DNA from: Catenovulum maritimum
Lineage (GTDB): Bacteria; Pseudomonadota; Gammaproteobacteria; Enterobacterales; Alteromonadaceae
DNA: 64,000 bases
Assembly (NCBI RefSeq): GCF_001050375.1
Contig: NZ_KQ130495.1
Location: 1-64,000, forward strand
Direction: 5' to 3'
The notes under the pieces were generated by a model that saw only the letters and a program-made list of their open reading frames with translations, was not told the DNA's origin and did not search any database. Shown piece by piece: positions 47,560 through 63,380 of the stretch. The first letter of the stretch is position 1. Every line of letters begins with the position of its first letter. Made by a program: the position numbers and the translations under genes.

Positions 47560-48918
47560 TTAAGATTTTATATCTGTCATTTCATACTTATCAAGTAGCG
47601 AATATAGCGTCGGCCTAGTTACGCCGAGTAACTCTGCTGTTCTTGAAATATTCTTCTCAGACAAATTATAGGCATGGCGAATTGCAGCCGTTTCTGCTTT
47701 CTCTCTCACTTCTCTTAAATTTAAAGAAGTAAATTCAGGTGTTGGCGTATCGCTTGCTACAAAGAGGCCTAAATCATCTGCGGTAATAAAGGGGGTATCT
47801 GCCATAACCACAGCTGTTTTGAGCTTGTTTTGCAGTTCTCGAATATTACCTGGCCACTTGTGTCCAGCTAACGCTGCTTTAGCGTCGTCACTAAAACCGC
47901 GAATTGATTTATTAAATTGATCGTTGTAACTATCTAGGAAAGATTTTGCGAGTAGTAAAACATCATTTCCTCTGTCTCTAAGTGGCGGGATATTGATAAT
48001 TAACTCACTGATCCGATAGAATAAATCTTCTCTGAATGTTTCTTGCGCTGACATGTCTTGTAAGTTTCTATGAGTCGCACAGATAACTCTGATATCGACG
48101 GGAATTTCTTCTCTTCCGCCAACTCGTTCAATCACTCGCTCCTGCAAGAATCGTAACATTTTAGCTTGCAAAGCGATTGGCATATCACCTATTTCATCTA
48201 AAAATAAAGTGCCGCTTTGTGCCGTCTCAATTTTCCCTTTAGTTGTTTTATTTGCACCCGTGAAAGCGCCTTTTTCATAACCAAATAGTTCAGATTCAAG
48301 TAAGTTCTCAGGTATCGACGCACAGTTTATTGCGACGAATGCTTTATTCGCTCTGTCACTTGAATTATGAATTGCTCGGGCAAAAACTTCTTTACCCGTA
48401 CCACTTTCACCAAGTAATAAAGTTGTTATTTCGGTTTTTGCTATTTTCTCAGCTCTTTTCGCTGCGGCTAAAATAGAATCACTATTACCTATAATAGTGC
48501 CCATAGCAGCATCGGTTTTTGATAAGCGACGATTCTCTTGTTCAAGTTCGACTAAATTGAAGGCGCGGGCAATGATGGTATTTAAAGTATCAACATCGAC
48601 AGGCTTTTGATAAAAGTCGTATGCCCCGAGTTCAACTGACTTCAACGCATTTTCTTTATCTGTATTCCCTGTTAGCACGATAACTTTTGTTTTCGGTGCT
48701 AGTGACAATATCTCAGTGAGAGCGGCTATTCCTTCTGATGCATTTGCCGCGTCAGGTGGTAAACCTAAATCAAGTGTAACCACTTCAGGTTCAAACCTTC
48801 TTAATTGAGTGATTGCACTTTGCCTGTCATCTGCAAAAATTATTTCGTAGTCGGATAAACCCCATTTTAATTGTTTTTGGATGCCTTTATCGTCATCCAC
48901 TACGAGTAACTTAGCCAT
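47560..48918 (-). CDS. prsR: PEP-CTERM-associated sigma-54 response regulator PrsR
   Basis: A 452-residue NtrC-type activator. The receiver domain has phospho-acceptor Asp50 (VVTLDLGLP) and Lys105. The AAA+ domain has Walker A GESGTGKE (170-177) and the sigma-54 contact loop GAFTGA (217-222). A C-terminal Fis-type helix-turn-helix lies at about 424-448. Its pairing with prsK identifies it as the regulator that accompanies exosortase/PEP-CTERM systems. It should bind enhancer-like sites and activate sigma-54 promoters. Dyads at 51064 and 59163, with -24/-12 promoters downstream of them, are the best candidates. Confidence 0.93.
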   Translation of the reverse strand: MAKLLVVDDDKGIQKQLKWGLSDYEIIFADDRQSAITQLRRFEPEVVTLDLGLPPDAANASEGIAALTEILSLAPKTKVIVLTGNTDKENALKSVELGAYDFYQKPVDVDTLNTIIARAFNLVELEQENRRLSKTDAAMGTIIGNSDSILAAAKRAEKIAKTEITTLLLGESGTGKEVFARAIHNSSDRANKAFVAINCASIPENLLESELFGYEKGAFTGANKTTKGKIETAQSGTLFLDEIGDMPIALQAKMLRFLQERVIERVGGREEIPVDIRVICATHRNLQDMSAQETFREDLFYRISELIINIPPLRDRGNDVLLLAKSFLDSYNDQFNKSIRGFSDDAKAALAGHKWPGNIRELQNKLKTAVVMADTPFITADDLGLFVASDTPTPEFTSLNLREVREKAETAAIRHAYNLSEKNISRTAELLGVTRPTLYSLLDKYEMTDIKS

Positions 48919-48942
48919 TACGAGTCCTTGAATTTTCTTGGT

Positions 48943-50991
48943 TTAATTGATTGGCAATTGAATTGTAAAACGTGTGCCGACATCTTCGACTGAATCAACT
49001 TTGAGATGTCCGCCTGCTTGCTCAACATAGAGCTGAGCATCATAGGCACCTATGCCCATTCCTGCATTTCCTTTCGTTGTTACAAAAGGTTTAAATAGCT
49101 TATCACGAATAAACTCACTCGACATGCCACAACCATTATCTTTTAGTTCAATAATTAAATTATTTTCACTTCTATTGATCGAAATACTGACTTCACCGTC
49201 GTCAGGTGTCGCTTGTTGGGCATTATCTATCAAGTGGTACATGATATTTGAGAATTTTTCACTATCTAGAGATAATTCCACTGTCTCAAGTTCGATTACC
49301 TTAGGTTTAGGTAAAATATTGAGGCACTTATCTTTGATTAACTGCCTAAGTAAATCACCAATGTTAAGTTTATTGACACTGATATTCTCTTCTACGGATT
49401 TATTCATCAACTGAGACAACATTTTTTCCATTCGTTGTTTGGTATATCCTAATGTCTCAAAAGTATCGTCGATAAAATCTGGATTATGTTTATGTTTTTC
49501 CGCATTCGATAAAATCATATCGACTTGGGAGAGCACATTTTTTAAATCGTGAATGACAAATGCAGACATGCGGCTGAAAGCGGCAAACTGGGCATTTTCT
49601 GTGATTAATTGCATTGCCTCATGCTGAAAAATGTAATGTCCTACTTGATTCGTCACAACTGTCATATAGTCTCTTATTTCCCAATTAAAGATGAGTTGTT
49701 CACCACTCAAGTTGTTGAGACATACAACCCCCCATAATTCGGCTTCTTGGTATATTGGGATAATTACGTGATATGAGCAGGATTCAATTAATTCGTACGA
49801 AATATGCAGTCCTGGATAATTTTGACTATTTGATTGGTAGTCTTTTAAATCGACGATCCAATGTTTCTTTTGAATAAATGGAATGACTAAGTCTAAAACT
49901 TGATCACAGCTAGAATTTGCCGGGATGTTTTTATATTGCTCTGTTGTTTTGGGGTAATGATAAGAAGCTAATTCTGGTGTGCCTTTTTTCAGTTTTATCA
50001 GCATGCCAGAGTCGTACTCTGTCGAGTATAAGAATGCCTGTAAGCTTCTGTCGTAAAAATTATTGTCCTCGTCCAATGGCAAGTTGAGTAAGTTAGTTAG
50101 ATTTAACCATCTAACACGATAATCAAATTGATTGGCAAAGAAGTTTTTCTCTAAAAAAACTTTAAAATTACGCTTTAAAGTTTCGGAAATAAATAGTGCA
50201 AAGAGGATAGTGAAGGCCAAAGCGATAAAGATGCTTTGAATCATTCCTGTCCATTGTGATTCTATACTTTTGATATAAAAACCGACTATAGCCATTAAGC
50301 ATAAATAAAATCCTGCAGCAATCAGTAAACTACTTTGAAATACCATTTCTCTGGATATGTAAACCTTAATGCCTAAAGATTTACTTCGCTTCACAGACCA
50401 GAGTAAAAGAGGCACTAAGGCTGTATGTAAGTAACCCCTTGCTAACCACATGTCGTTGTTTATCTGAATAACTAAGCTTGCATCTGCAAAAACAATGAAA
50501 TCAAAAATTAATAGCGTCCCCAACCCTAAAATAAGTGGTTTTAAACCCCAGAGTTCCTCCGCTGCTCGGCGGTATAAAATCTCTAAAAATATCAGGGCAG
50601 CAACCGTCAGTGCCAAATAGCCGATGAAGAATAATGCTGGTGAAATAATGTTGTAATGTGAAAAAAGAGGAATACAGATAGCAACTAAACTTATTCCTAA
50701 GGTGTATTGGTTTGTTAATAACGTTTTCGCTGTTGCTGTTTTATTGAGCATACTAAATAAAAGTATGCAGGTTATTGCTATTCGAATACTTTCAGCCCAA
50801 TTTACAATAGTTTCATTTATCAAAGAAAACTCAGCTAATAAATGAGTTGCGCCCCAAATTAAACTAGCAGAAGAGAATAAGATAAATACTCTATGAGGGA
50901 GGTTTTTGTTTTTACCGATACAACTCAGTAAAGTTAAAGCTAAATAAGCTATAGTTGCGAGCAAAAAGCCGAGCCAGGTAAGTATGTCCAT
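48943..50991 (-). CDS. prsK: PEP-CTERM-associated sensor histidine kinase PrsK
   Basis: A 682-residue inner-membrane kinase. The N-terminal half has about nine hydrophobic segments (1-265), followed by a GAF-like domain (about 320-455). The phospho-acceptor is His481 (VIHDLKNVLSQ), and a HATPase domain (about 570-680; DNGCGMS) ends the protein. The HDLKN box is typical of PrsK. It lies 24 bases upstream of prsR and is its cognate kinase. The sensed signal is unknown. The intergenic region upstream is shared with the divergent Tat-protein operon. Confidence 0.93.
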   Translation of the reverse strand: MDILTWLGFLLATIAYLALTLLSCIGKNKNLPHRVFILFSSASLIWGATHLLAEFSLINETIVNWAESIRIAITCILLFSMLNKTATAKTLLTNQYTLGISLVAICIPLFSHYNIISPALFFIGYLALTVAALIFLEILYRRAAEELWGLKPLILGLGTLLIFDFIVFADASLVIQINNDMWLARGYLHTALVPLLLWSVKRSKSLGIKVYISREMVFQSSLLIAAGFYLCLMAIVGFYIKSIESQWTGMIQSIFIALAFTILFALFISETLKRNFKVFLEKNFFANQFDYRVRWLNLTNLLNLPLDEDNNFYDRSLQAFLYSTEYDSGMLIKLKKGTPELASYHYPKTTEQYKNIPANSSCDQVLDLVIPFIQKKHWIVDLKDYQSNSQNYPGLHISYELIESCSYHVIIPIYQEAELWGVVCLNNLSGEQLIFNWEIRDYMTVVTNQVGHYIFQHEAMQLITENAQFAAFSRMSAFVIHDLKNVLSQVDMILSNAEKHKHNPDFIDDTFETLGYTKQRMEKMLSQLMNKSVEENISVNKLNIGDLLRQLIKDKCLNILPKPKVIELETVELSLDSEKFSNIMYHLIDNAQQATPDDGEVSISINRSENNLIIELKDNGCGMSSEFIRDKLFKPFVTTKGNAGMGIGAYDAQLYVEQAGGHLKVDSVEDVGTRFTIQLPIN

Positions 50992-51063: not shown

Positions 51064-51080
51064 TGTCTACTTTTTTTACA
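51064..51080. promoter_or_regulatory. Candidate PrsR enhancer site, TGT-N11-ACA dyad
   Basis: TGTCTACTTTTTTTACA shares its TGTC start, T-rich core and TTTTTTACA end with sites at 59163-59179 and 60418-60434. It lies about 80 bp upstream of a -24/-12 promoter, which suits binding of a Fis-type sigma-54 activator such as PrsR. It sits between prsK and the Tat-protein gene and could serve both. Confidence 0.6.
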
Positions 51081-51141: not shown

Positions 51142-51158
51142 TTGGTGCGTATCTTGCT
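51142..51158 (+). promoter_or_regulatory. Sigma-54 (-24/-12) promoter of the Tat/PqqD/HprK/NTase operon
   Basis: TTGGTGCGTATCTTGCT has GG (51144-51145) and GC (51156-51157) separated by exactly 10 bases, with TTGG and TTGC contexts close to the sigma-54 consensus. Transcription would begin near 51169, about 70 bases before the chosen start codon. Confidence 0.65.
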
Positions 51159-51236
51159 TTTGTTCATGTATATAGTATAAATTTGCTTAAGCTGTAAATG
51201 TCTTTGACAAATTACAGTTTTTAAATGGAGACTGAG

Positions 51237-51962
51237 ATGTCTAATAAAACAATTCAAAGTAACTCAAGTAATCCTCGCCGTAGCTTTATTAAAAAAGGGG
51301 CGCTTGGTGCAGCCTTAGTTACCACTATCAGTAGTAAATCAGCTTGGGGTAGTGTTACTAGCTGTACTGTATCAGGAACACTCTCAGGCAACTTATCTAA
51401 TACACATGATTTCTCTGCTTGTCAGTTAAAAGGTTATAGCCATGGGAGTTGGAGCAAACCGCATGGTAACGGAAAGGCTAGATGGGATTTTATTAAACAA
51501 AATACCAGCCCTAAAGTGAAACCAACGCATCCAATTCAAAATATCTTAGGTACAGGTTTGAACGGTATTGATGATGACGCTGAAATACTTATGTTCTTGA
51601 AAGATAAGAAAATTAAGCATATGGGTGATAATGAAAAAACTAGGTTAAACATCACGCAGACTAACGAAAATAAGAATACAAAATATTCAGAGTTGGTACT
51701 GGATAATAAAAATGATGCAGGTATTTGGAGGCAGAGAATTACAGCTGCTTTAAATGCATTTTTATTCTACACTATGAAGAAAGTATACGAAGCAGATAAT
51801 AATGCAAACTTTTCAAACATTGTTGCTTCGGATTTCTTTTATGAAATAAGAAGTGAGTTACCAGGCGCGAACTCTGAAGATCATTTAGAGGCTACTATTT
51901 TATGGATTTTAGCGTCAAATGACGAGAGTGAAATTATGGGTGGGTCTGATTGGGCTTATTAA
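51237..51962 (+). CDS. Twin-arginine-signal protein of unknown function
   Basis: The protein starts with a Tat-like signal (NPRRSFIKKGALGAALVTT, about residues 11-29 from this start) and would be exported folded. The remaining ~200 residues have no family I recognise. Cysteines occur only in the TSCTVSG and FSACQLKG segments. The C-terminus is acidic and ends GGSDWAY. The start at 51237 has GGAG 6 bases upstream. The frame also has an ATG at 51225, but that ATG overlaps the ribosome site. It is the first gene of the operon with the PqqD-like, HprK-like and nucleotidyltransferase genes, so it may be their substrate. That is inference. Confidence 0.75.
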   Translation: MSNKTIQSNSSNPRRSFIKKGALGAALVTTISSKSAWGSVTSCTVSGTLSGNLSNTHDFSACQLKGYSHGSWSKPHGNGKARWDFIKQNTSPKVKPTHPIQNILGTGLNGIDDDAEILMFLKDKKIKHMGDNEKTRLNITQTNENKNTKYSELVLDNKNDAGIWRQRITAALNAFLFYTMKKVYEADNNANFSNIVASDFFYEIRSELPGANSEDHLEATILWILASNDESEIMGGSDWAY

Positions 51963-51979
51963 TTAATCTAGCTCTTTAA

Positions 51980-52234
51980 ATGTATTTAAAATTAAGCCAT
52001 GCACTAATTTACTCTAAATTAGGAGAAAGCATGGCTGTATATAATAAATTAACCGATGATACACATATTATCGGTTTTCCTTATTCTAGTGTGTTGAGTG
52101 GGTTAAATAACTCAATTGATACATTCGATGATCTGAACGAATTTTTATCTACTAACTTTTCAATTGAAGAGTCAACTGAAAATTTAATCATGCATTTAGA
52201 AAAGCTCGGTGTAATTGTTGTGGTGCCAAGTTGA
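51980..52234 (+). CDS. PqqD-like peptide-binding protein (HPr-rel-A system)
   Basis: An 84-residue PqqD-related protein, of the winged-helix fold that in RiPP pathways binds leader peptides. The start at 51980 is kept because LKLSHALIYSKLGESMAVYN-like residues belong to the family pattern before the THIIGF segment. A strong ribosome site (AGGAG at 52021) before an internal ATG at 52031 could also give a 67-residue form. It overlaps the kinase gene by 4 bases, so the two are translationally coupled. It probably presents a peptide or protein substrate to the kinase or nucleotidyltransferase. Confidence 0.8.
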   Translation: MYLKLSHALIYSKLGESMAVYNKLTDDTHIIGFPYSSVLSGLNNSIDTFDDLNEFLSTNFSIEESTENLIMHLEKLGVIVVVPS

Positions 52235-53094
52235 ATTTGTGTCGTTTCACAGTCCAAACTGGACCTTTTTCCTTTTCAATAAATAGTAATATTAGTTACC
52301 TAGTCCAAGAACTTGGCAAAATGTATGAAGGGTTTTCTGAGTGCACTCCTAATCAGTTCATTGACTTTAATATATCAATCCAGCATAGCAAGGGGTTGAG
52401 GCGCATTATCAAACCTCAAGCAAATTTCTTTCTTGATGAGTTTTCCCCATTTAAACCACTTCCTGCTATACAAGCCTACCCAATGTTAGAGTGGGGGATG
52501 AATTGGTGCATGGCCCAGCATGCGCATCATTATTTAATGTTACATGCTGGGGTTGTCGAAAAAAATGGAAAAGCGATAGTGCTACCTGCAACGTCGGGTT
52601 CTGGAAAAAGTACTTTGACAGCTGCACTTGTATTTAATGGGTGGCGACTTTTCTCTGATGAGATTGCATTATTTTCTTTGAAAGATGAATTGCTCTATCC
52701 TTGTTCCAGACCAATTAATTTAAAGAATGAATCAATCGAAATAATCAAAAATTACATTCCAGATGCGGTCTTTAGCAATATTGCATTGGATACACATAAA
52801 GGCACAGTGTCTTTATTAAAACCTCCTGCGGATAGTGTGAGGAGAATGCATGAACCAGCACCTTTAGGTATGTATGTTTTTCCCACATACAAAGCAGGAA
52901 GTGCCGCACGTTTAAATACTATTTCACCAGAGCAGGCTTTGCGTAATTTAACTCAACATAGTTTTAATTATCATATTATTGGAAAATCAGGCTTTGAGCT
53001 TTTAGTGAAACAATTACAAACAACGCCTTGCTATGAGTTTCAATATAGTTCATTTGACGATGCAATTGATGTTTTTAATGGTTTGGTCGATTAA
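52231..53094 (+). CDS. HprK-related P-loop kinase (HprK-related kinase A)
   Basis: A 287-residue protein with the HprK-like core: LHAGVVEKNGKAIVLPA leads into a P-loop (TSGSGKST, Lys126), followed by WRLFSDE in place of the HprK GHRLVADD region. It lacks the N-terminal HprK domain and the HPr-specific signature, so HPr is unlikely to be the target. Relatives in lasso-peptide clusters phosphorylate the precursor peptide. Here it is joined to a PqqD-like gene upstream (4-base overlap) and a nucleotidyltransferase downstream (1-base overlap). Confidence 0.85.
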   Translation: MNLCRFTVQTGPFSFSINSNISYLVQELGKMYEGFSECTPNQFIDFNISIQHSKGLRRIIKPQANFFLDEFSPFKPLPAIQAYPMLEWGMNWCMAQHAHHYLMLHAGVVEKNGKAIVLPATSGSGKSTLTAALVFNGWRLFSDEIALFSLKDELLYPCSRPINLKNESIEIIKNYIPDAVFSNIALDTHKGTVSLLKPPADSVRRMHEPAPLGMYVFPTYKAGSAARLNTISPEQALRNLTQHSFNYHIIGKSGFELLVKQLQTTPCYEFQYSSFDDAIDVFNGLVD

Positions 53095-54188
53095 TGTCTA
53101 TATTAATAGCTGTATTGAATGATGCTGAACTTATAAATAACTTTGGTGTTAAAGAGTGGAGTTTACTTAAATTAGAAGCTAAATCTGCTAATTTAGTCGG
53201 GCCATTATTTACTTATTTAAAGTGTAAAGAAAAATCAATACCAGAGTATGTTTCTTGGCACTTTGAATCATCACTGATTATCGCTAATAAACAGCGCAGA
53301 CAAGCTTTAAGAGAAATTAAAGATATAAACCTTTCTTTAGCTGCATTTAAAGATGTTACTTTTCTAAAGGGTGCTGCTTATATAATTCATCACCTTGATT
53401 GTAGTGTAGGGCGGTTGTTTTCTGATATAGATTTACTTGTTAATAAAGCTGAGTTAGCTCAAGTTGAAAGAGCGCTGTATTTTAATGGCTGGCTACAGAC
53501 TGAAGTTGAAGATTACGATGAAAAGTATTATCGCGAATGGATGCATGAGATCCCACCTATGCAGCATGTAAGCAGAGGAACTGTGTTGGATGTTCACCAT
53601 AATATATTGCCGAAAACCAACCAACTATGTTTAAGCCCTTCACTTTTTGAATTTGAAGATGTTGATCTAGAAGATATTGGTCGAATTAAAACATTATCTA
53701 AAAATGATATGTTTATACATTGTGCTGTTCATCTGTTTACTGAGAGTGAGTTTCATAATGGGCTTAGAGACCTATGGGATTTACACTGTATGATTATACA
53801 ATTTTCAAAAGAAAAAAGTTGTTTTATTGATGATGTTTACACACGTTCATGTGAGTTAGGTTTAGAGTCTTACGTATTACTTGCCTTTAGATATACTAAT
53901 AAAGTTTTTTTTACTCCATTAAATAATGATATTAGAAATGTATTGGATAATGAGAGATTTATACAAAAATTTTGTTGGGATTTCGCATTTTTAAATATAT
54001 TTAAACCAGATGCTAAAGCTTGTCGAACTTGGAAAACACCTATTGCAACGTTTTTAACTTATTGGCGCGGTCACTTAATTCGTATGCCATTACGCTTGTT
54101 AGCTCCCCATTTAATGCGTAAGTTATGGATGCAATTTAGAGATGCTTTAGATAAGACTCCTAAAGAAGAAGCACAGAATTTACCTTAA
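53094..54188 (+). CDS. Nucleotidyltransferase (NTP_transf_5-like)
   Basis: A 364-residue protein with the nucleotidyltransferase core LKGAAYIIHH, then GRLFSDIDLLV (the two metal-binding aspartates) and a third acid in VLDVHHN. This is the family annotated as uncharacterised nucleotidyltransferases, also found near lasso-peptide kinases. It could transfer a nucleotide to a protein, peptide or small molecule. It overlaps the kinase gene by one base (TAATG) and ends at the stop of the convergent protease gene. Confidence 0.82.
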   Translation: MSILIAVLNDAELINNFGVKEWSLLKLEAKSANLVGPLFTYLKCKEKSIPEYVSWHFESSLIIANKQRRQALREIKDINLSLAAFKDVTFLKGAAYIIHHLDCSVGRLFSDIDLLVNKAELAQVERALYFNGWLQTEVEDYDEKYYREWMHEIPPMQHVSRGTVLDVHHNILPKTNQLCLSPSLFEFEDVDLEDIGRIKTLSKNDMFIHCAVHLFTESEFHNGLRDLWDLHCMIIQFSKEKSCFIDDVYTRSCELGLESYVLLAFRYTNKVFFTPLNNDIRNVLDNERFIQKFCWDFAFLNIFKPDAKACRTWKTPIATFLTYWRGHLIRMPLRLLAPHLMRKLWMQFRDALDKTPKEEAQNLP

Positions 54189-54941
54189 TTATAACTTTTC
54201 GATTAACTCATTTAAATATTTGATTGGTATAGCATAAGTAATTGCACTGGGATCACTTAATACAGATTCTTTAGTTTCTTTTACAAATACCTTGTTAACG
54301 ATTGCAATGACTTCACCTGTGTCATGTAAATATACAGCACTGCCGCTGTTTCCTGGGTAGGCAGTAGCATCTAACTGATAAGTATAAAATGGGTTTCTAA
54401 GTCTTTTTAATGCCGCTATGGTTAACTGGTTACTATTAGATGAAGGCGTTACCACAGGCGTTTTAGCCGAAATAATACCTCTGTGAGTCACAGGGTATAA
54501 GCCTAATACAGCACCGATTGGAAATCCAGTAAAGGCAACTTGGGTTCCGTCTGGCTTAAATTCAGTATTGGATAATTTTACAGCCGGTAGTTTACCACTG
54601 ATGATTTTTAGAATGGCGATATCGTGGACTGGATCACTTGAAACTATTTCGACAAAGTAAATTTCTGGTTTATTTCCGATACCAGCAAAGATAACTCGTT
54701 TCTCATTTGCGTTTTCGTCAAGTGAATTACTAACTACATGATAATTGGTCGCTACATGCTGGCCTAGCATAATGACAAATCCAGTACCTTGTAAACTTGC
54801 TCTTGGACTGTTTAATGGGTTATATACGCCAACACCTACAACAGACGGTTTGATTTTTGCTATAGTCTCGACCAAGTTAGCTTTGGCTGTGAAACTGATT
54901 AAAATGATCAGTGTTAAAATAAAAACTAAGCTTTTCTTCAT
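54189..54941 (-). CDS. Periplasmic trypsin-like serine protease
   Basis: A 250-residue protein with a signal peptide (ending near residue 21, TAKA|N). A chymotrypsin fold with the full triad follows: His in ATNYHVV, Asp in VHDIAILKI and Ser in AYPGNSGSAVY. There is no PDZ domain, unlike DegP/DegS. It lies end to end with the nucleotidyltransferase gene and divergent from the YdcF-like gene. Its location in the PEP-CTERM island suggests a role in processing exported proteins, but no substrate is evident. Confidence 0.85.
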   Translation of the reverse strand: MKKSLVFILTLIILISFTAKANLVETIAKIKPSVVGVGVYNPLNSPRASLQGTGFVIMLGQHVATNYHVVSNSLDENANEKRVIFAGIGNKPEIYFVEIVSSDPVHDIAILKIISGKLPAVKLSNTEFKPDGTQVAFTGFPIGAVLGLYPVTHRGIISAKTPVVTPSSNSNQLTIAALKRLRNPFYTYQLDATAYPGNSGSAVYLHDTGEVIAIVNKVFVKETKESVLSDPSAITYAIPIKYLNELIEKL

Positions 54942-54970
54942 AATTAAACTTATCGGATTTGGTTAATTTA

Positions 54971-55756
54971 ATGGATATTTTATTTACAATCAAAAAGGTG
55001 CTTGGTGTTATTATTTCACCTTTCCCAATTTGTTGCTTTATTATTTTTGTAGGCCTTATTATTTTATTTAAAGCAAAAAGGGATTTAAACAAAATTAAGC
55101 GAGCTAAATGCTTTCTGTCTATCGGAATCCTGTTATTGTTGCTTATATCCTCACCTATCGTTTCTTTTCAACTTCTTCGACCAATAGAAACAGTTTACGC
55201 TAAATATCAAGATGTTGAGCAAAGTGTCGATAATATCATAGTGCTGGGGTGCTATAATACAGAGGATGCTTCACTTCCTTTGGTAGCAAACATTAAACCT
55301 TGTTCTTTATACAGAGTCGTTGAGGCAGCTCGGCTTGCTAGAGTATACCCTGAAGCTGAAATTATTTTATCAGGCTGGCAGAAAACAAAAGGTCGGGAAT
55401 ATAGCCACCCAGCTTACATGGCTCAATTATTAATATCTTTAGGCATAGATGAAGAAAGAATCGTTTTAAAAGAAGAAAATAATGATACCTCGGAAGAGGC
55501 AATTAGCTTAAAATCAATAGCAGTTGGTAAATCAAATTTATTAGTAAGCTCTGCGAGCCATTTAAAACGGGCTGTAAAAATATTTGACGCACAGGGAATT
55601 AGTGTAACGCCCGTGCCTGCAGAGTTTTTAGCTAGAGAAGTGGGAGGGAGCTTTCATGCTTTATTACCATCTGGTGATGCGATTAATAACACTCAGCGTG
55701 CATTTTACGAATTATTAGGTAACATTTGGGTATGGATGCTTTCCGTACTAAAATAA
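54971..55756 (+). CDS. YdcF/ElyC-family (DUF218) membrane protein
   Basis: An inner-membrane protein with two N-terminal membrane segments (about 10-32 and 40-65) and a DUF218 domain (IIVLGCYNTEDASL; AEIILSGWQKTKGRE; NNDTSEEAIS). This family includes ElyC/SanA, linked to envelope and polysaccharide precursor integrity. The ATG at 54971 is chosen. A TTG at 54959 would add four residues, and neither site has a strong ribosome motif. It is 12 bases before the patatin gene. Confidence 0.82.
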   Translation: MDILFTIKKVLGVIISPFPICCFIIFVGLIILFKAKRDLNKIKRAKCFLSIGILLLLLISSPIVSFQLLRPIETVYAKYQDVEQSVDNIIVLGCYNTEDASLPLVANIKPCSLYRVVEAARLARVYPEAEIILSGWQKTKGREYSHPAYMAQLLISLGIDEERIVLKEENNDTSEEAISLKSIAVGKSNLLVSSASHLKRAVKIFDAQGISVTPVPAEFLAREVGGSFHALLPSGDAINNTQRAFYELLGNIWVWMLSVLK

Positions 55757-55768
55757 ATTTGGATTTAT

Positions 55769-56641
55769 ATGGATACCCTAGCAGAAACACTTGCTCAATT
55801 TGAGCAACTTGATCAAACCAAAATCGTTCCCGTTTTCTCTGGCGGTGGAACCCGAGCTTCGGCGCATATTGGGATACTACAAGCATTAAAAGAATTAAAA
55901 ATTGAATTTGATAACCTTGTCGGTGTTTCTGGCGGGAGTATTATTTCAGCATTGTACTGCTCAGGAATGGATATTAATGATATTAAGCAACTCGCTTTAG
56001 ATACTGATTTTAAGCAGTTCAGAGGTTACAGCCTGATTCGCTTATTTCGAGATGGTGGCTTAGATTCAGGTGATAAGTTTGAAAAATGGATGGATCATCA
56101 TTTAAAAGGCGCAACATTTGCTGATTTAAAATACAATTTAAATGTATTAGCAACGGATGTAAATGGAGGCGGTCCAGTCGTCTTTAATAAAACTAGAACA
56201 CCTAGTTTAAAAGTTTCTAAAGCTGTTCGATTCTCTATGTCTATACCACTCATGTTCAGCTTCCAAAAATATGAGGATCACATTTTAACAGATGGCGCCA
56301 TTTTAGCTGAAGATGCTTTATTTAATGATTGGGCTGGGGATGGAACACCAACGATTTGCTTCAGATTAAAAAGTAAACCGGGTAAACAAAAACCGCAAAG
56401 GGCTTCGATTTTTCCATTGAAAAATTATGTCCTAATGCTAGTTAGAACTTTTATGACAGCAGTTTCTCGAGAATATGTTCAAGCAAATCACTGGCATAGC
56501 ACAATTGTAATTGACACAGGCACGATTTCACCGGTCGATTTCAACCTAAATAACGAACAAAAGGAAGAGTTGTATCAAGCAGGCTACTCGACAGTGTTAT
56601 CAATAATTCCTAAGAAGCTTTTTCAACCTGTGAAAGGTTAG
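55769..56641 (+). CDS. Patatin-like phospholipase
   Basis: A 290-residue protein with the patatin oxyanion motif FSGGGTRASAHIG (about 27-39), the nucleophile elbow GVSGGS (Ser near 58) and the catalytic Asp in LTDGAI. It has no signal peptide. It would hydrolyse acyl esters of lipids. It is probably co-transcribed with the YdcF-like gene, and its neighbours suggest a role in lipid supply or envelope changes. Confidence 0.88.
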   Translation: MDTLAETLAQFEQLDQTKIVPVFSGGGTRASAHIGILQALKELKIEFDNLVGVSGGSIISALYCSGMDINDIKQLALDTDFKQFRGYSLIRLFRDGGLDSGDKFEKWMDHHLKGATFADLKYNLNVLATDVNGGGPVVFNKTRTPSLKVSKAVRFSMSIPLMFSFQKYEDHILTDGAILAEDALFNDWAGDGTPTICFRLKSKPGKQKPQRASIFPLKNYVLMLVRTFMTAVSREYVQANHWHSTIVIDTGTISPVDFNLNNEQKEELYQAGYSTVLSIIPKKLFQPVKG

Positions 56642-56820
56642 CGTTTGCTGTTGGCAATAACTCGCCTTTTATCGGCTCTGATTAGCATTGTTTATTTTGC
56701 CTAATATTCAATTAGATATATCAATTTAACTTACACGAAGCTAAACTGATTTATATTTTTATTTTTTATTTATTTAGAAAATAACTTTATATATATTAAT
56801 CTTAGTTATTATGCTGAATT

Positions 56821-56836
56821 GTTAGAATTTTCTAAC
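56821..56836. promoter_or_regulatory. 16-bp palindrome upstream of the acyltransferase gene
   Basis: GTTAGAA-TT-TTCTAAC is a perfect inverted repeat 50 bases before the acyltransferase start codon. It has the size of a repressor or activator site. No regulator can be assigned. Confidence 0.4.
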
Positions 56837-56885
56837 TTTGTTATTACAGTCGAATTTTATTTAAACAAGGCTAGTTAGGTATAAA

Positions 56886-57719
56886 ATGAAAGCATTACGG
56901 AAATTAGCAGATAAGCCTATTATTGGTCCAGTTGTAAAAGCTGCTATTCGTTATTTTGCAGATAAAGAAGTCGATGGTATCTCTGGACATTTTTCCCAGT
57001 TTTTAACTCCTTTACTTGCGACAACTCCTGAGCTTAAACAAGATACATACAGAGTTAGACATAATGTGTACTGTGAAGAGCTATCATTTTTGGAAAAGCA
57101 TGAATCTGGAATGGAACAAGATCATTTTGATGCCCATTCCATCCATTGTGCTATCAAGCACAAGCATACAGATGCATATGCTGGTACGGTTCGTTTGGTC
57201 GTTTCATCTAGCCTAGATGAAAAGTTGCCTCTGGAAGAATATTGCCCTGACTCTATCGACAATGATGAAGTCCACCCTAGTGACTTTAGCCGCGATAAAA
57301 TATGCGAAATATCTAGACTTGCAATCCCCGCTGACTTTAGGAGGCGTAACGCAGATAAATTCTCAGGAGCAGCAACCGGTGCTATTAATGAGGTATCTTA
57401 TTCAGAATCTGAATTAAGATGTTTCCCTTTTATCGCCGTTGGTTTATACATGTCTTGTGCGTCTATCGCCCATCAACGTGGGATTAAGCATTGCTTTGTT
57501 ATGATGGAGCCTAGATTGGCCAGAAGCCTAAAATTTGTCGGCATTCAATTTAAAAAAATAGGCCCGACAGTGGAATACCATGGTCAAAGAGCACCTTATT
57601 ATATTAGTAATAAAATGTTAATGGATAGCTTAAGTCCTGGCTTTAAAAAATTAATGTACCGAATTGAAGATGATATTGAACTTCAATATAAAGACGCATT
57701 TAAAAAAGGCTTAATGTAA
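56886..57719 (+). CDS. PEP-CTERM/exosortase-associated acyltransferase (FeeM-like)
   Basis: A 277-residue GNAT-fold protein related to N-acyl amino acid synthases and acyl-homoserine-lactone synthases. Signatures are YRVRHNVYCEELSFL (about 57-71), AGTVRLVV (about 101-108) and EISRLAIPADFR (about 145-156). It probably transfers an acyl chain from acyl-ACP to an amine. Proteins of this subfamily occur near exosortase systems. It is paired with the ThiF-like gene 42 bases downstream. The product is unknown. Confidence 0.85.
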   Translation: MKALRKLADKPIIGPVVKAAIRYFADKEVDGISGHFSQFLTPLLATTPELKQDTYRVRHNVYCEELSFLEKHESGMEQDHFDAHSIHCAIKHKHTDAYAGTVRLVVSSSLDEKLPLEEYCPDSIDNDEVHPSDFSRDKICEISRLAIPADFRRRNADKFSGAATGAINEVSYSESELRCFPFIAVGLYMSCASIAHQRGIKHCFVMMEPRLARSLKFVGIQFKKIGPTVEYHGQRAPYYISNKMLMDSLSPGFKKLMYRIEDDIELQYKDAFKKGLM

Positions 57720-57761
57720 AGTCATCATTCTCTTTTAAAATGGATATAAAGGTTTAGTAAA

Positions 57762-58619
57762 ATGTTTAATTACGAGAACGCATTTTCAAGAAATATTGGT
57801 TGGGTCACAGAAAGCGAGCAACAAGTTCTCAGAAGCAAAAGAGTTGCAACCGCAGGGGCTGGGGGAGTTGGGAGTGAGCATATAGTTACCTTAGCTAGAT
57901 TAGGCATAGGTAAATTTAATATATCTGATTTTGACGAATATGAAGTTCATAATTTTAACCGGCAAGCTGGGGCATTTATGTCTACTATAGACAGACCAAA
58001 GGTTGAAGTTATGGAAGAAATCGCCAAAGACATCAATCCAGAAGCTGAAATTAAGTCTTTTCCGGAAGGAATTAATGAATCTAATGTTGATGAGTTTCTT
58101 CAAGATGTTGATGTTTATGTTGATAGCCTAGATTATTTTGCACTCCAAGCCCGTAAATTAGTTTATAAAAAGTGCCTTGAAAAAAATATTCCCGTTGTAG
58201 TTGCTGCGCCAATTGGGATGGGGACTGCACTATTGTGTTTTACGGAAGATAGCATGAACTATGAGGAATATTTTCGCTTTGAAGATTGTAAAACTGAAAA
58301 TGAACAACTCGTTAAATTCTTAATAGGTTTGAGTCCTTCTTTAATTCAACGAAGTTATTTAGTCGATCCATCAACAAGTGATTTTATTGCTAAAAAAGCG
58401 CCTTCATTACCTATGGGAGTTAAATTGTGTGGAGGTGCTGCGGCTTCTTATGTTCTGAAAATTTTACTCGGACGTGGAGAGCTCGTTAAAGCGCCTTATG
58501 GAATACACTTTGACGCTTATAAAAATAAAATGGTTAAGACGTGGCGTCCTTGGGGGAATAGAAACCCAATCCAGCGCTTAATGTTTAGCATCGCCAAGAA
58601 AGTTGTACTTAAAAAATAA
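57762..58619 (+). CDS. ThiF-family E1-like adenylyltransferase
   Basis: A 285-residue Rossmann protein with GAGGVGSEHIVTLARLGIG (about 32-50) and the ATP-site motif DFDEYEVHNFNRQ. These are the key features of ThiF/MoeB/E1 enzymes that adenylate a carboxyl group. The zinc CxxC pairs of MoeB are absent, and no conserved sulfur-carrier or ubiquitin-like gene is nearby. Co-occurrence with the FeeM-like acyltransferase suggests joint synthesis or modification of an acylated small molecule. That is inference. Confidence 0.85.
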   Translation: MFNYENAFSRNIGWVTESEQQVLRSKRVATAGAGGVGSEHIVTLARLGIGKFNISDFDEYEVHNFNRQAGAFMSTIDRPKVEVMEEIAKDINPEAEIKSFPEGINESNVDEFLQDVDVYVDSLDYFALQARKLVYKKCLEKNIPVVVAAPIGMGTALLCFTEDSMNYEEYFRFEDCKTENEQLVKFLIGLSPSLIQRSYLVDPSTSDFIAKKAPSLPMGVKLCGGAAASYVLKILLGRGELVKAPYGIHFDAYKNKMVKTWRPWGNRNPIQRLMFSIAKKVVLKK

Positions 58620-59162: not shown

Positions 59163-59179
59163 TGTCAGTATTTTTTACA
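59163..59179. promoter_or_regulatory. Candidate PrsR enhancer site upstream of the PEP-CTERM gene
   Basis: TGTCAGTATTTTTTACA has the TGT-N11-ACA form. The embedded AGTAT-TTTTT-ACACT dyad (59167-59181) has one mismatch. It lies about 83 bp upstream of the -24 element of a sigma-54 promoter, a normal enhancer distance. Confidence 0.65.
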
Positions 59180-59251
59180 CTAGTGTTTCGGTAATAATTG
59201 AAATATTTACCAGGGCCCCTTAATTTGTTGTTTTTATTGGGTTTTTTAAAG

Positions 59252-59268
59252 TTGGCATTGGGGTTGCA
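59252..59268 (+). promoter_or_regulatory. Sigma-54 (-24/-12) promoter of the PEP-CTERM gene
   Basis: TTGGCATTGGGGTTGCA matches the sigma-54 consensus TGGCA-N6-TTGCA. GG (59254-59255) and GC (59266-59267) are exactly 10 bases apart. Transcription would begin near 59279, about 40 bases before the start codon. Confidence 0.8.
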
Positions 59269-59320: not shown

Positions 59321-60358
59321 ATGAAAAAGTTAAATAAATTAGCTCTAGGGATTGCACTAAGTACAGTATCTGCTTTTTCTCAAGCTGGTACTATCATTAC
59401 TAACTGGGGCTATATCAATGAAGCTGGTTTCGCAAATGCGACTACTGGTTATGCTAAAGAAGTTCAAACAGTTAATGGCGCAAAAAACTCATTTTTAGAT
59501 CCGAATACATTACAGCCACTAGATTCAACTGGTGCAGCATCACCGACTAATGGCAATAACTGGGCACTAAATTATGAAGATGGTTTAGTATATGATTTGG
59601 GAACAGCGGGTTATGTTAGTGGTTCTTCTAACGTGAGTGATAGCTCTACTGGTCTTTCAATTTTCGAAGAACCTACTGTTAACAACCCTGCAGGCATTCC
59701 AAGTGGTGCTTTATATGATGAAATATGTTGGGGTAAAGGCCCTAGCTGTTTGTCTTTTAAAGACGGAAACGGCGCTGATGTATCTCGTTTAGAAGGTACA
59801 GCGACAGTTAACGCAAATGGTGGTACCAACTGGAATACTGGTACAACAATGTCACACAAAAATAAAATTACTGGTTCTCCTTCATTAACTTCAATCGATT
59901 TGATTGACGGTTTGAAATTATTCAGTAATGAAGTTGTTGGTGGGCAGTTACCGTTAATCGAATTAGGTTTCGACATCATCTTCAATGAAACATATGATGC
60001 GCCTGAATTGTTTGACTACGCGCCAGATGATGCATTTATCGTATCAATTCCAGCTGAGTTTAACTCTCTTGTAACTTTTGGTGCTGACTATATTGATATC
60101 ACTTTAGGTTTAGACCTTACTGGTGCAGTAGCTGCTGGTTATCACACTGATTATGAAGTTGTAACTCGTATTAGTGGTTTAGAAGTTGTTTCTGTCTCTA
60201 ATAACCAAGCGTTTGGTTTAATTACTCCTGAAGGCGGAACTAACCTTTTAAATGCTGCATTCGCAATTCGCGCAGTAGGTGTTCCAGAGCCAGTATCGAT
60301 CGCTATCTTCGGTCTTGGCTTGTTAGGTTTAGCTGGTGCAAGTCGCAGAAAAGCTTAA
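59321..60358 (+). CDS. PEP-CTERM sorting-signal protein
   Basis: A 345-residue exported protein with a signal peptide (cut near STVSAFSQA|G) and a C-terminal PEP-CTERM signal: VPEP (321-324), a hydrophobic helix, then RRKA. Exosortase cleaves such tails during surface sorting. The middle has a SHKN segment (about residue 178) like the THxN subfamily. The start at 59321 is chosen because a proper signal peptide begins there. The longer frame from 59198 would run through the sigma-54 promoter. The function of the mature protein is unknown. No exosortase gene is in the window. Confidence 0.92.
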   Translation: MKKLNKLALGIALSTVSAFSQAGTIITNWGYINEAGFANATTGYAKEVQTVNGAKNSFLDPNTLQPLDSTGAASPTNGNNWALNYEDGLVYDLGTAGYVSGSSNVSDSSTGLSIFEEPTVNNPAGIPSGALYDEICWGKGPSCLSFKDGNGADVSRLEGTATVNANGGTNWNTGTTMSHKNKITGSPSLTSIDLIDGLKLFSNEVVGGQLPLIELGFDIIFNETYDAPELFDYAPDDAFIVSIPAEFNSLVTFGADYIDITLGLDLTGAVAAGYHTDYEVVTRISGLEVVSVSNNQAFGLITPEGGTNLLNAAFAIRAVGVPEPVSIAIFGLGLLGLAGASRRKA

Positions 60359-60417: not shown

Positions 60418-60434
60418 TGTCAGTGTTTTTTACA
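60418..60434. promoter_or_regulatory. Third TGT-N11-ACA site, upstream of prsT
   Basis: TGTCAGTGTTTTTTACA is nearly identical to 59163-59179 and includes the perfect dyad AGTGT-TTTTT-ACACT (60422-60436). It lies about 180 bp before prsT. I found no GG-N10-GC promoter between it and prsT, so its target is uncertain. Confidence 0.6.
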
Positions 60435-60614: not shown

Positions 60615-63380
60615 ATGGATCATATGAATAATAATATTGGCATTTTGGGAGTTTGTTTTTTTTGTTTAGCGTTGTCCGGTTGCTTTAGTTCAAAGTCAAC
60701 AGATACTTATATTGCAGAGTCTAAAGCTTACATCGCTAATAATGATACATCAGCTGCCATTATTGCTTTAAAAAATGCGGTTGCGAGCGAACCATCAAAC
60801 GCTGAGGCGCGTTATTTACTCGGTAATGAATATTTAAAAATAGGTTCATATTTACAAGCTCAAAAAGAGATTGAAATAGCTTATGAGTTAACCCCGACCG
60901 AAGATATTGCGCTCAGTTACGCTAAAGTGTTATACCTAGTTGATTCATTTACTGAAAGTTTATCTGTTATTGATGGTATAAAGCCTGAAAATTTATCTCT
61001 GGATGAACTGCATTATTATAAATACTTGAATCTATTTGCGCTTGGGGAAATTGACGAAGCGCTCTCTGTACTTTCCCTAAACAAAGCTAAACAAGAGCCT
61101 TATATTAGTTTATATAAGGCAATTATGTTATTAGAGCAAAAAAAGGGTGTAGAAGCTTATACATTAACCAAAAATATTGCTGAGGCACATCAGAATCATC
61201 TAGAGTTTGTTCAAGTTCACGCTAGGTTAGCTAATTTAAATCAAGATTTTGGCGTTGCTGCTGAGTTTTATGAGCATTACTCACGTTTGCAGCCTGAGCA
61301 GCATATTATTAAGCTCATGCTTGCTGACGCGTATATCAAAGATAAAAATTTTAAACCCGCATCATTAATACTAGACAAGCTATTGAAGGAATTTCCTTCT
61401 AATGGATATTCTAACTTGTTTAGAGCTATGGTCCATTTTGAGCAGCAGCAATGCAAGCAAGCACATTCTAGAGCGGTAAAAGCAATTCAAGCAGGACTAT
61501 CAACTAACACGAGTCGACTAATCGCAGGTACTTGCGCATATAAAATTGATAAATTAGAAGAAGCTTACAGCCATTTAATTGCACTTCAAAAAATATCAAC
61601 CTTGGATGAGTCAATTAAACGTTTGTTGTCTGTTGTACAACTAAGACTAGGTTATTCTGATGACGCAGTTGATAATTTGATGTCGTTAACGGAAACTTCG
61701 GAAGCTGACTCATCACTGTTTATTGAGGCAGGCATGCAAGCATATAAGAGTGGAAATGAGTCTGTTGCTAAAGCGATGGTTGAGCGCTCTAAAGCACTTT
61801 CTCCTTCCAAAATAGAAGATCTGACTAAGTTGGGTCTTTTAGATTTTTCTGTTTCTCAAGATGATAGCTTATTAAGAGACCTCTCTGATACAGATAATGC
61901 TAACGGTAAGAGTCGATTAGCATTAATCGCAGTATATTTACGCCAGAAGAAATTTTCTGACGCTTTAAAGGAAGCGGAAAAGTGGCTTGCTTTAGACGGA
62001 GAAAATGTAGAGGCGCTAAATGTTGCAGGGTATAGCGCTATGAATTTAACCCGTGACGATTTAGCTGCTAGTTACTTTGAAAAGTCGCTGTCGATTAAAT
62101 CAGACAATACTATGGCTATCACGTTTTTCGCGGATAAGTACATCGCTCAAAAAGACTTAGAAAACGCTCAAAAAATGTTATCTAAGCTGATTGGCTCTGA
62201 ACAAGCAAGCCTGATTAATTACACCTATTATTATGCTGGCTACAAAAGAATGGGACTAGAGGAACAAGCTATACAAGTCCTCGCCTCCAAATACAAATCA
62301 AATAAAGAAAATGCGGACTTTCTTTATTTATACACTAAAGCGCTTTTCTCTGAAAAAAAATATCATAAAGTGATAGATTTGCTAAGAAGTACTTCGGCGA
62401 ATAAAATTTATCCTGAACAACATTGGTACATGCTTGCTGAAAGTTATGTTGCTCTAAAAGAGTTGGAAGCAGCGTTTAGAGCTTTCGAACTTTGGACTAA
62501 ATCTTCGCCTAGCTCTATCCGCCCTTGGTTAAGATTACTTTCTTTGTCAGAAATGACAATGCAATACTCAAAAGGTAGCTCTATTGTCCGCCAAGCGAAA
62601 GTTCATTTTCCAGATGATGTAAAGTTGGATATTTATGATATTAACTTTAGGCTTAAACTAAAAAATACAACAGGTGTCGAAAAGCTTATTGAGAAGGTAG
62701 AACTATTTGATCCTAATTTAGTTACATTATGGAGATTCAAGAGTGAACTGGCGTTATTGTTGAATAAGCATGATGACTCAGTACTTGCACTAACGGAGTA
62801 TTATAAGCTGAAGCCAACGAATAAAGCTGCATTAAGTGTATATCAATTGATGAAATCCGATATTAAAACTAAAAATCGTTCGTATGAATTTTTAACGACT
62901 CATGCTGAAAAGTTTCCTCAAAGAGCAAAAGATATGTGGTTTATTTTAGGCAATGATTATTTGTCTACGGATCCCAACAAAGCTAAATCTGCTTATTTAA
63001 AAAGCATCGATTTGAATGACAAAAATTATATTGCTCATAATAACTTGGCTTGGCTATATTCTCAGAGTGGAGAGATGGATAAAGCAATAGAGCATGGACT
63101 ATCTGCCAACAAACTTAGTCCTAATAATCCTCAAATTATGGATACATTAGGAATGGTATATTTAAAAAATAAAGAATATAGCAAAGCTTATGGTTATTTG
63201 TTTGAGGCATTTCAAGTAGATTCGGATAATACGGCTATTGCTTCTAATCTGATAGAGGTGCTTATTGATATAACAGATAAGTCTCAATTAAATGATGCCA
63301 TTAACTTAATTGAATCTAGTCCTGTTGGGAGTGAAGCTTCTTTGTCTGAAAAACTCAATGACATTAAAGCTAAACTATAA
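60615..63380 (+). CDS. prsT: PEP-CTERM system TPR-repeat lipoprotein PrsT
   Basis: A 921-residue lipoprotein (lipobox LALSGC, Cys23) built almost entirely of tetratricopeptide repeats. Size and layout match the TPR lipoprotein that accompanies exosortase systems together with PrsK and PrsR. It is probably envelope-anchored and holds export or polysaccharide assembly partners together. Met4 (60624) is an alternative start, and neither has a good ribosome site. The gene after it (63445) is also of a type found with exosortase loci. Confidence 0.93.
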   Translation: MDHMNNNIGILGVCFFCLALSGCFSSKSTDTYIAESKAYIANNDTSAAIIALKNAVASEPSNAEARYLLGNEYLKIGSYLQAQKEIEIAYELTPTEDIALSYAKVLYLVDSFTESLSVIDGIKPENLSLDELHYYKYLNLFALGEIDEALSVLSLNKAKQEPYISLYKAIMLLEQKKGVEAYTLTKNIAEAHQNHLEFVQVHARLANLNQDFGVAAEFYEHYSRLQPEQHIIKLMLADAYIKDKNFKPASLILDKLLKEFPSNGYSNLFRAMVHFEQQQCKQAHSRAVKAIQAGLSTNTSRLIAGTCAYKIDKLEEAYSHLIALQKISTLDESIKRLLSVVQLRLGYSDDAVDNLMSLTETSEADSSLFIEAGMQAYKSGNESVAKAMVERSKALSPSKIEDLTKLGLLDFSVSQDDSLLRDLSDTDNANGKSRLALIAVYLRQKKFSDALKEAEKWLALDGENVEALNVAGYSAMNLTRDDLAASYFEKSLSIKSDNTMAITFFADKYIAQKDLENAQKMLSKLIGSEQASLINYTYYYAGYKRMGLEEQAIQVLASKYKSNKENADFLYLYTKALFSEKKYHKVIDLLRSTSANKIYPEQHWYMLAESYVALKELEAAFRAFELWTKSSPSSIRPWLRLLSLSEMTMQYSKGSSIVRQAKVHFPDDVKLDIYDINFRLKLKNTTGVEKLIEKVELFDPNLVTLWRFKSELALLLNKHDDSVLALTEYYKLKPTNKAALSVYQLMKSDIKTKNRSYEFLTTHAEKFPQRAKDMWFILGNDYLSTDPNKAKSAYLKSIDLNDKNYIAHNNLAWLYSQSGEMDKAIEHGLSANKLSPNNPQIMDTLGMVYLKNKEYSKAYGYLFEAFQVDSDNTAIASNLIEVLIDITDKSQLNDAINLIESSPVGSEASLSEKLNDIKAKL

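Follow-up and report, generated by a model that had tools for sequence, protein, structure and literature searches.

The window analysed here, a 64,000-nucleotide stretch of the Catenovulum maritimum genome (contig NZ_KQ130495.1, positions 1 to 64,000), contains a cassette of four genes (51237–54188, + strand) encoding a protein with a twin-arginine translocation (Tat) signal, a PqqD-like protein, an HprK-related kinase and a nucleotidyltransferase-fold protein. The same four-gene set is present in many environmental bacteria, where the kinase and its two helpers probably add phosphate-based groups to the Tat-signal protein before its export in folded form, as part of a matrix-building machinery. 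On balance, we favour the view that the cassette is a Tat-coupled version of the pathways that produce phosphorylated ribosomally synthesized and post-translationally modified peptides (RiPPs). The computed support consists of the linkage of the genes, the conserved serines of the Tat-signal protein, the motifs of the kinase and the transferase, the predicted fold of the kinase, a regulon box and an association with exosortases; from these we infer the identity of the substrate, the chemistry, the binding of the PqqD-like protein to the leader, the order of the steps and the role in the matrix.

Organization and linkage of the cassette

The first gene (51237..51962) encodes the Tat-signal protein, the putative substrate; GGAG directly precedes its best start at 51237, from which residues are numbered here, and an alternative in-frame ATG lies at 51225. 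It is followed, after a gap of 17 bases, by the gene for the PqqD-like protein (51980..52234), a putative recruiter resembling a RiPP recognition element (RRE). This overlaps by 4 bases with the gene for HprK-related kinase A (52231..53094, with a TTG start), a putative serine kinase, which in turn overlaps by 1 base with that of the nucleotidyltransferase-fold protein (53094..54188), which could carry out a second modification step. This is the arrangement described in the first-pass annotation, made from the sequence alone, which had listed four same-strand genes with the last three overlapping by 1–4 bases.

The kinase belongs to NCBIfam family TIGR04352 (HprK_rel_A; 358.2 bits, cut-off 200), and the nucleotidyltransferase to PF14907 (NTP_transf_5; 124 bits, gathering cut-off 31.2). 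The PqqD-like protein of the window scored 21.5 bits with TIGR04353, under the 35-bit cut-off, while 5 of 5 relatives' proteins tested from the same gene position scored 52–75 bits; on two criteria, score and gene position, the window copy counts as a divergent relative of that family. The name 'HPr-rel-A system', which the first-pass annotation had given to both proteins, stands for the kinase but falls short for this PqqD-like copy. In NCBIfam the name covers the kinase (TIGR04352) and relatives of the PqqD-like protein (TIGR04353) but not the Tat-signal protein, for which no NCBIfam model was found. For the Tat-signal protein of the window, neither Pfam nor NCBIfam yielded a family at E 0.01; its relatives gave only scattered Tat-signal matches and weak single matches. 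With the Tat-signal model TIGR01409 it reached 14.4–14.5 bits, under the 16.7 cut-off; it does carry a twin arginine ahead of a hydrophobic stretch, as Tat substrates do, and its TatABC-dependent export is predicted.

Sixty related genomes were scanned, a kinase over the cut-off was found in 21, and all 21 neighbourhoods (the window among them) were inspected. The nucleotidyltransferase gene adjoins the kinase gene in 21/21. A Tat-type protein is encoded upstream in every locus (that of L041 was spotted by eye, and that of L043 is a mature part with no in-frame signal), and the twin arginine is present in 20/21, L043 being the exception. A small open reading frame (ORF) occupies the PqqD position, between the Tat gene and the kinase, in 21/21; these calls are positional, few of the products matching the window copy by phmmer, and mostly not by profile. 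When named genomes were scanned with the kinase alignment, at least 340 stretches encoding a relative came up, of which the best 80 were kept. Profiles built from the relatives only detected the nucleotidyltransferase and the Tat-signal protein in 80/80 of these loci (weakest Tat match, E 0.02). The PqqD-like protein was likewise found by profile in 80/80, a figure reached partly by construction, as that profile was built from the ORFs at that position in those same loci. Altogether, the kinase is accompanied by the nucleotidyltransferase and the Tat-signal protein in 101/101 loci (the window, 20 relatives and the best 80 named loci), an association beyond chance. The named loci belong mostly to Beta- and Gammaproteobacteria, according to record titles, with Malonomonas rubra (L059) also among them. 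One scan of viral contigs with a single-sequence query found no relative of the kinase.

The best Tat match lies upstream of the kinase in 75/80 named loci, and downstream of the nucleotidyltransferase in L048, L051, L052, L053 and L054. Downstream of the nucleotidyltransferase, L048 and L052 hold two copies of the Tat-signal protein, as though a single set of enzymes acted on several substrates, and in L054 a second kinase and a second nucleotidyltransferase come after the Tat gene.

In a wider sample of the phylum (398 genomes), 61 genomes had a kinase over the cut-off, and 55 of these were inspected: 28 via 1.5-kb flanks and 40 via larger stretches (17 genomes in both), with 4 already among the relatives; G319, G242, G394, G421, G180 and G226 were left out. 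A Tat-type protein and a PqqD-like protein were found alongside the kinase in 49/55 genomes (4 of the 49 also among the 101 loci), and in 35/40 of the larger stretches. The first-pass annotation had singled out the Tat-signal protein as the partner of the enzymes; far from being absent from most loci, it is present in all 101 and, together with PqqD, in these 49 genomes, which bears that choice out. The nucleotidyltransferase profile matched 31/40 larger stretches; in seven (L161, L162, L165, L166, L168, L182 and L183) the frame starts 1.3–2.3 kb past the kinase, and 3 of the 9 misses (L167, L173, L184) have <2.6 kb of downstream sequence. Since Tat and PqqD reach 35/40 and the nucleotidyltransferase 31/40, the tightest unit in the phylum sample is that of the Tat-signal protein, the PqqD-like protein and the kinase. 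In L149 the Tat and PqqD genes are on the strand opposite to the kinase, and in L197 (same genome as L154) the kinase and the nucleotidyltransferase are naturally fused in one 708-residue frame.

Conserved residues and predicted structures

The Tat-signal proteins of the window and of 72 of the 80 named loci (73 proteins) were aligned; those of L057, L073, L091, L104, L110, L116, L120 and L122, with doubtful starts or truncation, were left out. Mean column identity was 13%, and the only invariant columns (73/73) were R14, R15, S46 and S50, that is, the twin arginine and two serines. Near-invariant columns were C43 (72), N173 (71), L172 (67), C62 (66) and S54 (65). In the alignment of the 21 relatives' loci, numbered from the ATG at 51225, the same three serines appear as S50 (20/21), S54 (20/21) and S58 (19/21). 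The invariant serines have the spacing S-x3-S and lie ∼7 residues into the mature protein; measured from a plausible A-x-A/G cleavage site, the first has a median position of 7 (quartiles 6 and 8; n = 71). Counting with a regular expression gave serine motifs in 91/101 loci; several of the 10 misses were due to the wrong twin arginine being picked, and the alignment count is preferred.

In a model of the Tat-signal protein of relative L080, which had an overall predicted local distance difference test score (pLDDT) of 70.9, the serine segment scored ∼55 and preceded a confident helical part; this low confidence would fit an accessible tail without proving one. A Foldseek search of the PDB with this model gave no match at E 0.001 (best E 9.1), which is not proof of a new fold, and VIA-align against 17 chains gave none with Z ≥ 2. 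A profile of the protein gave two weak matches to virus capsids (E 0.8) among PDB chains.

In other lineages the mature part of the Tat-signal protein differs, and a C-terminal [ST]C[WFYI]xS[FLI] motif is present in 32/33 proteins (the exception being L199), against a chance rate of 0.0001 per protein on shuffled mature sequences; the count is descriptive, because the pattern was spotted in 19 and 7 of these same proteins. It omitted 7/40 loci, namely L179, L180, L183, L193 and L198 (Tat-signal protein not found), L181, which was missed by the filter and does carry the motif, and L200, whose protein is of the window type and ends without it. The motif (L161–L197) is common to two otherwise unlike mature domains. 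Mean pairwise identities of the signal (0.35, 0.32 and 0.48) and the mature part (0.11, 0.16 and 0.21; 20, 72 and 28 proteins, respectively) were not used as an argument. A Rieske control gave 0.74 and 0.66 (29 proteins); the Rieske signal is retained as a membrane anchor, which makes it a poor control.

In the alignment made of the kinase (41 of 81 sequences), the invariant residues include H105, G123, G125, K126, S127, T128, D143, E144, R160, P161, K165, N166, T188, K190 and G191. H105, K126 and D143/E144 are presumably the counterparts of HprK active-site residues. Invariant residues of the nucleotidyltransferase (31 of 81 sequences aligned) are K92, G93, D111, D113 and D166. The conservation of the kinase P-loop and the nucleotidyltransferase aspartates, on which the first-pass annotation had made its proposal depend, was thus observed in these alignments. 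The model of the kinase (pLDDT 95.6) aligns end to end with phosphoenolpyruvate carboxykinases (PEPCK; VIA-align Z up to 16.9, root-mean-square deviation 4.4, 268 residues), and Foldseek lists HprK among its matches with a best E of 2.6e-4. Against PDB chains, the kinase profile gave chiefly P-loop matches, including HprK at E 0.027; the PqqD-like profile matched mostly designed helical proteins, and the nucleotidyltransferase profile gave no match.

Known systems, proposed mechanism and alternatives

The closest known system is that of the linear polyphosphorylated peptides (LPP; lppAKBSDN) of Bacillota (Popov et al. 2026; PMC13381572), which uses the same enzyme types with another leader, peptidase and exporter. 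According to the available text of that paper, the HprK-like kinase LppK phosphorylates core residue S3 of the linear leader peptide, leader cleavage by LppS is seen only together with the RRE protein LppB, deletion of the nucleoside triphosphate (NTP) transferase gene causes no visible change in a heterologous host, LPP and paeninodin clusters often lie beside polysaccharide loci, and LPP is restricted to Bacillota; the words Proteobacteria, Pseudomonadota, twin-arginine and Tat are absent from its main text. As in LPP, a discrete adaptor (an RRE protein there, a PqqD-like protein here), an HprK-like kinase and an NTP transferase come together in the cassette; the likeness is one of enzyme types, and membership of LppN in PF14907 is an assumption. 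Further likenesses are a precursor with a conserved N-terminal part and a variable rest, the lack of a cyclase, and the polysaccharide genes often found near LPP. The serine near the mature N-terminus, which is the phosphate site in LPP, is invariant (73/73) in the cassette, where its phosphorylation is putative. Unlike the cassette, LPP relies on a YxxP motif in the leader, on a dedicated signal peptidase of archaeal type and on an MsbA-like exporter. The leader of the cassette is a Tat signal, its substrate is larger and has a predicted folded domain, a PrsR box and a sigma-54 promoter precede its genes, and the organisms in which it was found are mostly Pseudomonadota.

The first-pass annotation had drawn an analogy with the tailoring enzymes of lasso-peptide clusters; it was apt, and with LPP there is a linear system, related in its mode of action, that has been studied by experiment (PMC13381572). 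In the lasso pseudomycoidin cluster, as described in the accessible parts of PMC9266682 and PMC8498205, PsmK phosphorylates a serine and PsmN, a nucleotidyltransferase homologue, adds hexoses, not a nucleotide, to the phosphate. The cassette, like the paeninodin and pseudomycoidin tailoring sets (PadeK, PsmK, PsmN), has an HprK-like kinase followed by a nucleotidyltransferase homologue, and the C-terminal serine motif seen in the other lineages is reminiscent of the serine at the lasso C-terminus; PMC10040529 gives a lasso-like gene list. Unlike in lasso clusters, the cassette's putative substrate is an exported protein and not a lasso. Neither the Asn-synthetase-like macrolactam cyclase and B2 peptidase of lasso clusters nor an SpI-like peptidase or MsbA-like exporter was found among the window genes from prsR to prsT (47.5–63.4 kb; window locus only), in line with the absence of a cyclase and a leader protease recorded in the first pass. 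Among the papers searched, none was found that names the HPr-rel-A system, or that links a PqqD/HprK-type kinase to a Tat signal or to PEP-CTERM/exosortase.

Under the proposed mechanism, the Tat-signal protein would be made along with its own modification enzymes under the control of the histidine kinase PrsK, the response regulator PrsR and sigma-54. The PqqD-like adaptor would recruit this protein in the cytoplasm, most likely via the twin-arginine leader, and the kinase, with its HprK/PEPCK fold, would phosphorylate the conserved serine or serines, once or several times. For the window's lineage and for the named Beta- and Gammaproteobacteria, the target would be the S-x3-S that directly follows the leader; for the other lineages, it would be the serine within the C-terminal motif. 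A sugar or a nucleotide would next be attached to the phosphate by the PF14907 enzyme, and the folded protein would exit via Tat, be cut by signal peptidase and join the PEP-CTERM/exopolysaccharide matrix. The Tat route exports folded proteins, and would therefore be a sensible choice if modification must finish in the cytoplasm. A more elaborate version, which we advance tentatively and regard as doubtful, gives the twin-arginine signal a second role as a RiPP-type leader, to which the PqqD-like protein would bind as a proofreading chaperone. The Tat-signal protein would in this way be held back while the kinase and the PF14907 enzyme assemble a serine cluster modified with (poly)phosphate or phosphosugar; Tat would receive it only once modified and folded, and within the PEP-CTERM matrix it would form an anionic or glycan-linked constituent. 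Should the cassette work as a Tat-coupled phosphorylation pathway, a RiPP-type adaptor and a serine kinase would act on a Tat-exported protein, phosphorylated-peptide chemistry would extend from small peptides of Bacillota to larger exported proteins of Pseudomonadota, and the PEP-CTERM/exosortase matrix system, with its link to flocs and biofilms, would have an extra modification step. The uncharacterised 'HPr-rel-A' families gain a candidate substrate, candidate target residues and a regulon.

The first-pass annotation had named either an exported protein or a hidden peptide as the target. The former gains from the Tat-signal protein being an almost constant partner. A hidden short precursor peptide, looked for among the short ORFs in the Tat–kinase interval of the 21 relatives' loci, is not needed, because the Tat-signal protein is a constant partner with a leader-plus-core anatomy. 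That earlier interpretation is partly supported overall; it had missed the PEP-CTERM/exosortase regulon context and the invariant serines.

Several observations weigh against a Tat-coupled phosphorylation pathway. In the fold searches the kinase model is nearer to PEPCK, a small-molecule enzyme, than to HprK, and a protein substrate is thus putative. The 80 named loci were chosen as the query's best matches and do not form a random sample; their Tat-signal proteins were found with a relatives' profile that itself holds the motif, their starts were placed by the twin arginine, and the 73-sequence alignment omits 8/80. One common serine site is not evident, since two lineage groups hold their conserved serine at opposite ends of the protein, and the lasso/LPP leader motif [YW]xxPx[LVIFA] occurs in 1/73 leaders and in 0/29 of the other lineages. 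In the phylum sample, 6/55 genomes lack the full Tat and PqqD set: L179, L180 (with little upstream sequence), L183 and L198 have a kinase with neither protein, as does G078 (L157), on a short contig, and L193 has a PqqD-like protein with no Tat-signal protein found. L179, L180, L183 and L198 possibly represent a second kinase subtype inside polysaccharide clusters; an Asn-synthase-like ORF was read by eye near the nucleotidyltransferase in L180 and L183. Finally, a matrix role via exosortase is not general, as 29/61 kinase genomes of the phylum sample show no exosortase.

We consider rather unlikely an alternative in which the kinase and the nucleotidyltransferase activate a small molecule (e.g. 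a sugar or an exopolysaccharide building block), the Tat-signal protein is exported as a partner of its own, and the PqqD-like protein assists the enzymes and not the Tat-signal protein. The end-to-end alignment with PEPCK and the 4/40 loci with a kinase but neither a Tat-signal nor a PqqD-like protein, two of them beside Asn-synthase-like genes, fit this explanation, as does the tracking of exosortase by the cassette: among the 60 relatives, exosortase was found in 21/21 kinase genomes and in 17/39 others (Fisher P = 4e-6, too small a value because the genomes are related). Exosortase was, however, not found in 29 of the 61 kinase genomes of the phylum sample (32/61 against 50/337 of the others), PqqD and the Tat-signal protein stay with the kinase in 8/9 loci where the nucleotidyltransferase was not found, and the only invariant mature residues in 73 Tat-signal proteins are two serines. 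In the window's class exosortase accompanies the kinase in 13/13 genomes of that sample, the 29 without it belonging to other classes. Exosortase as an obligate partner was rejected at the phylum level on these counts; some of the absences may be false, as many of these genomes are incomplete drafts (57–99% complete).

It is less likely still that the conserved serines are structural or bind another partner (e.g. PqqD or a metal) while the kinase modifies something else, e.g. PEP-CTERM proteins. The serines are flanked by conserved cysteines (C43 in 72/73, C62 in 66/73), so that the segment could be structural, and, from the shared box, the cassette and the PEP-CTERM genes are predicted to be controlled together; but a putative serine kinase beside the Tat-signal protein in every locus of the 101, and the different serine motif of the other lineages, would then be left unexplained. 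That the kinase is a conventional HPr kinase controlling the sugar phosphotransferase system, as its superfamily name and P-loop might suggest, is very improbable: it scored 16.3 bits with the HPr kinase model TIGR00679 (cut-off 240), and we know of no HPr kinase that fits the constant company of a Tat-signal protein and the PEP-CTERM box.

Regulation and genomic neighbourhood

Upstream of the Tat gene, the window contains a PEP-CTERM 'motif 1' box (TGTC-N8-TTACA; 51064..51080, + strand), a predicted PrsR site, and a sigma-54 −24/−12 promoter (TGGTGCGtatcTTGCT; 51143..51158, + strand). The box TGTC-N8-TTAC is exact in 58 of the 101 upstream regions, against 0.4 expected from mononucleotide shuffles, a value not corrected for the discovery of the pattern in those same regions. 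The box is consistent with the independently published motif 1/motif 2 pair of the PEP-CTERM/exosortase (XrtA) system (Haft et al. 2006; PMC1569441), in whose available text motif 1 is the predicted PrsR site. A sigma-54 site scoring ≥9/12 is present in 71/101 upstream regions (10.0 expected from dinucleotide shuffles). The spacing between the box and the −24 element has an 11-bp period (50/52 spacings; 0/5000 uniform random sets were as strong), as would be expected of an activator on one helix face; the periodicity was tested post hoc on related loci with sigma-54 scores ≥9 only, the outlying spacings 137 and 196 being dropped. Three sites in the genome of the window show the joint pattern with a gap of 50–78 bases, one ahead of this operon and the other two ahead of PEP-CTERM genes. 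By its box and −24/−12 site, the operon is predicted to belong to the PrsR/PEP-CTERM regulon, with PrsR binding the box.

The cassette sits between prsK/prsR (47560–50991) and prsT (60615–63380). PrsR (47560..48918, − strand; TIGR02915, 700 bits, cut-off 502.6) is a PEP-CTERM-box response regulator and sigma-54 activator, PrsK (48943..50991, − strand; TIGR02916, 561 bits, cut-off 300) a histidine kinase, and PrsT (60615..63380, + strand; TIGR02917, 408 bits, cut-off 312) a tetratricopeptide repeat lipoprotein. An exosortase-associated acyltransferase gene and a PEP-CTERM gene are also near the cassette, and an exosortase is encoded on its contig at 91.2–91.9 kb. The neighbours and the box plus sigma-54 motif are thus those of the PEP-CTERM/XrtA system. 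Unlike PEP-CTERM proteins, the Tat-signal protein gave no match to PEP-CTERM models, either in the window or in the 73 aligned proteins (E 0.05), and the text available of PMC1569441 does not name the cassette.

A further PEP-CTERM box and sigma-54 site (TGGCATT-GGGG-TTGCA) lie at 59163–59268, upstream of a THxN-family PEP-CTERM gene, whose start is probably the in-frame ATG at 59321, since the listed TTG start (59198) precedes the promoter. A copy of the box at 60418–60434, upstream of prsT, suggests that the regulon includes its own tetratricopeptide repeat lipoprotein. Two more exact box matches are on the − strand, one inside an ORF (20218–20234) and the other between the cassette promoter and the Tat gene (51193–51209). 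Downstream of the cassette (54189–58619), genes for an HtrA-like protease, an ElyC-like DUF218 protein, a patatin, the exosortase-associated acyltransferase and a ThiF-like protein follow; judged by size, genes of similar dimensions and order recur by the cassette in several relatives. At ∼36.3–46.9 kb, beside the PEP-CTERM region, the window contains genes resembling a type II secretion operon, of which GspK alone was checked.

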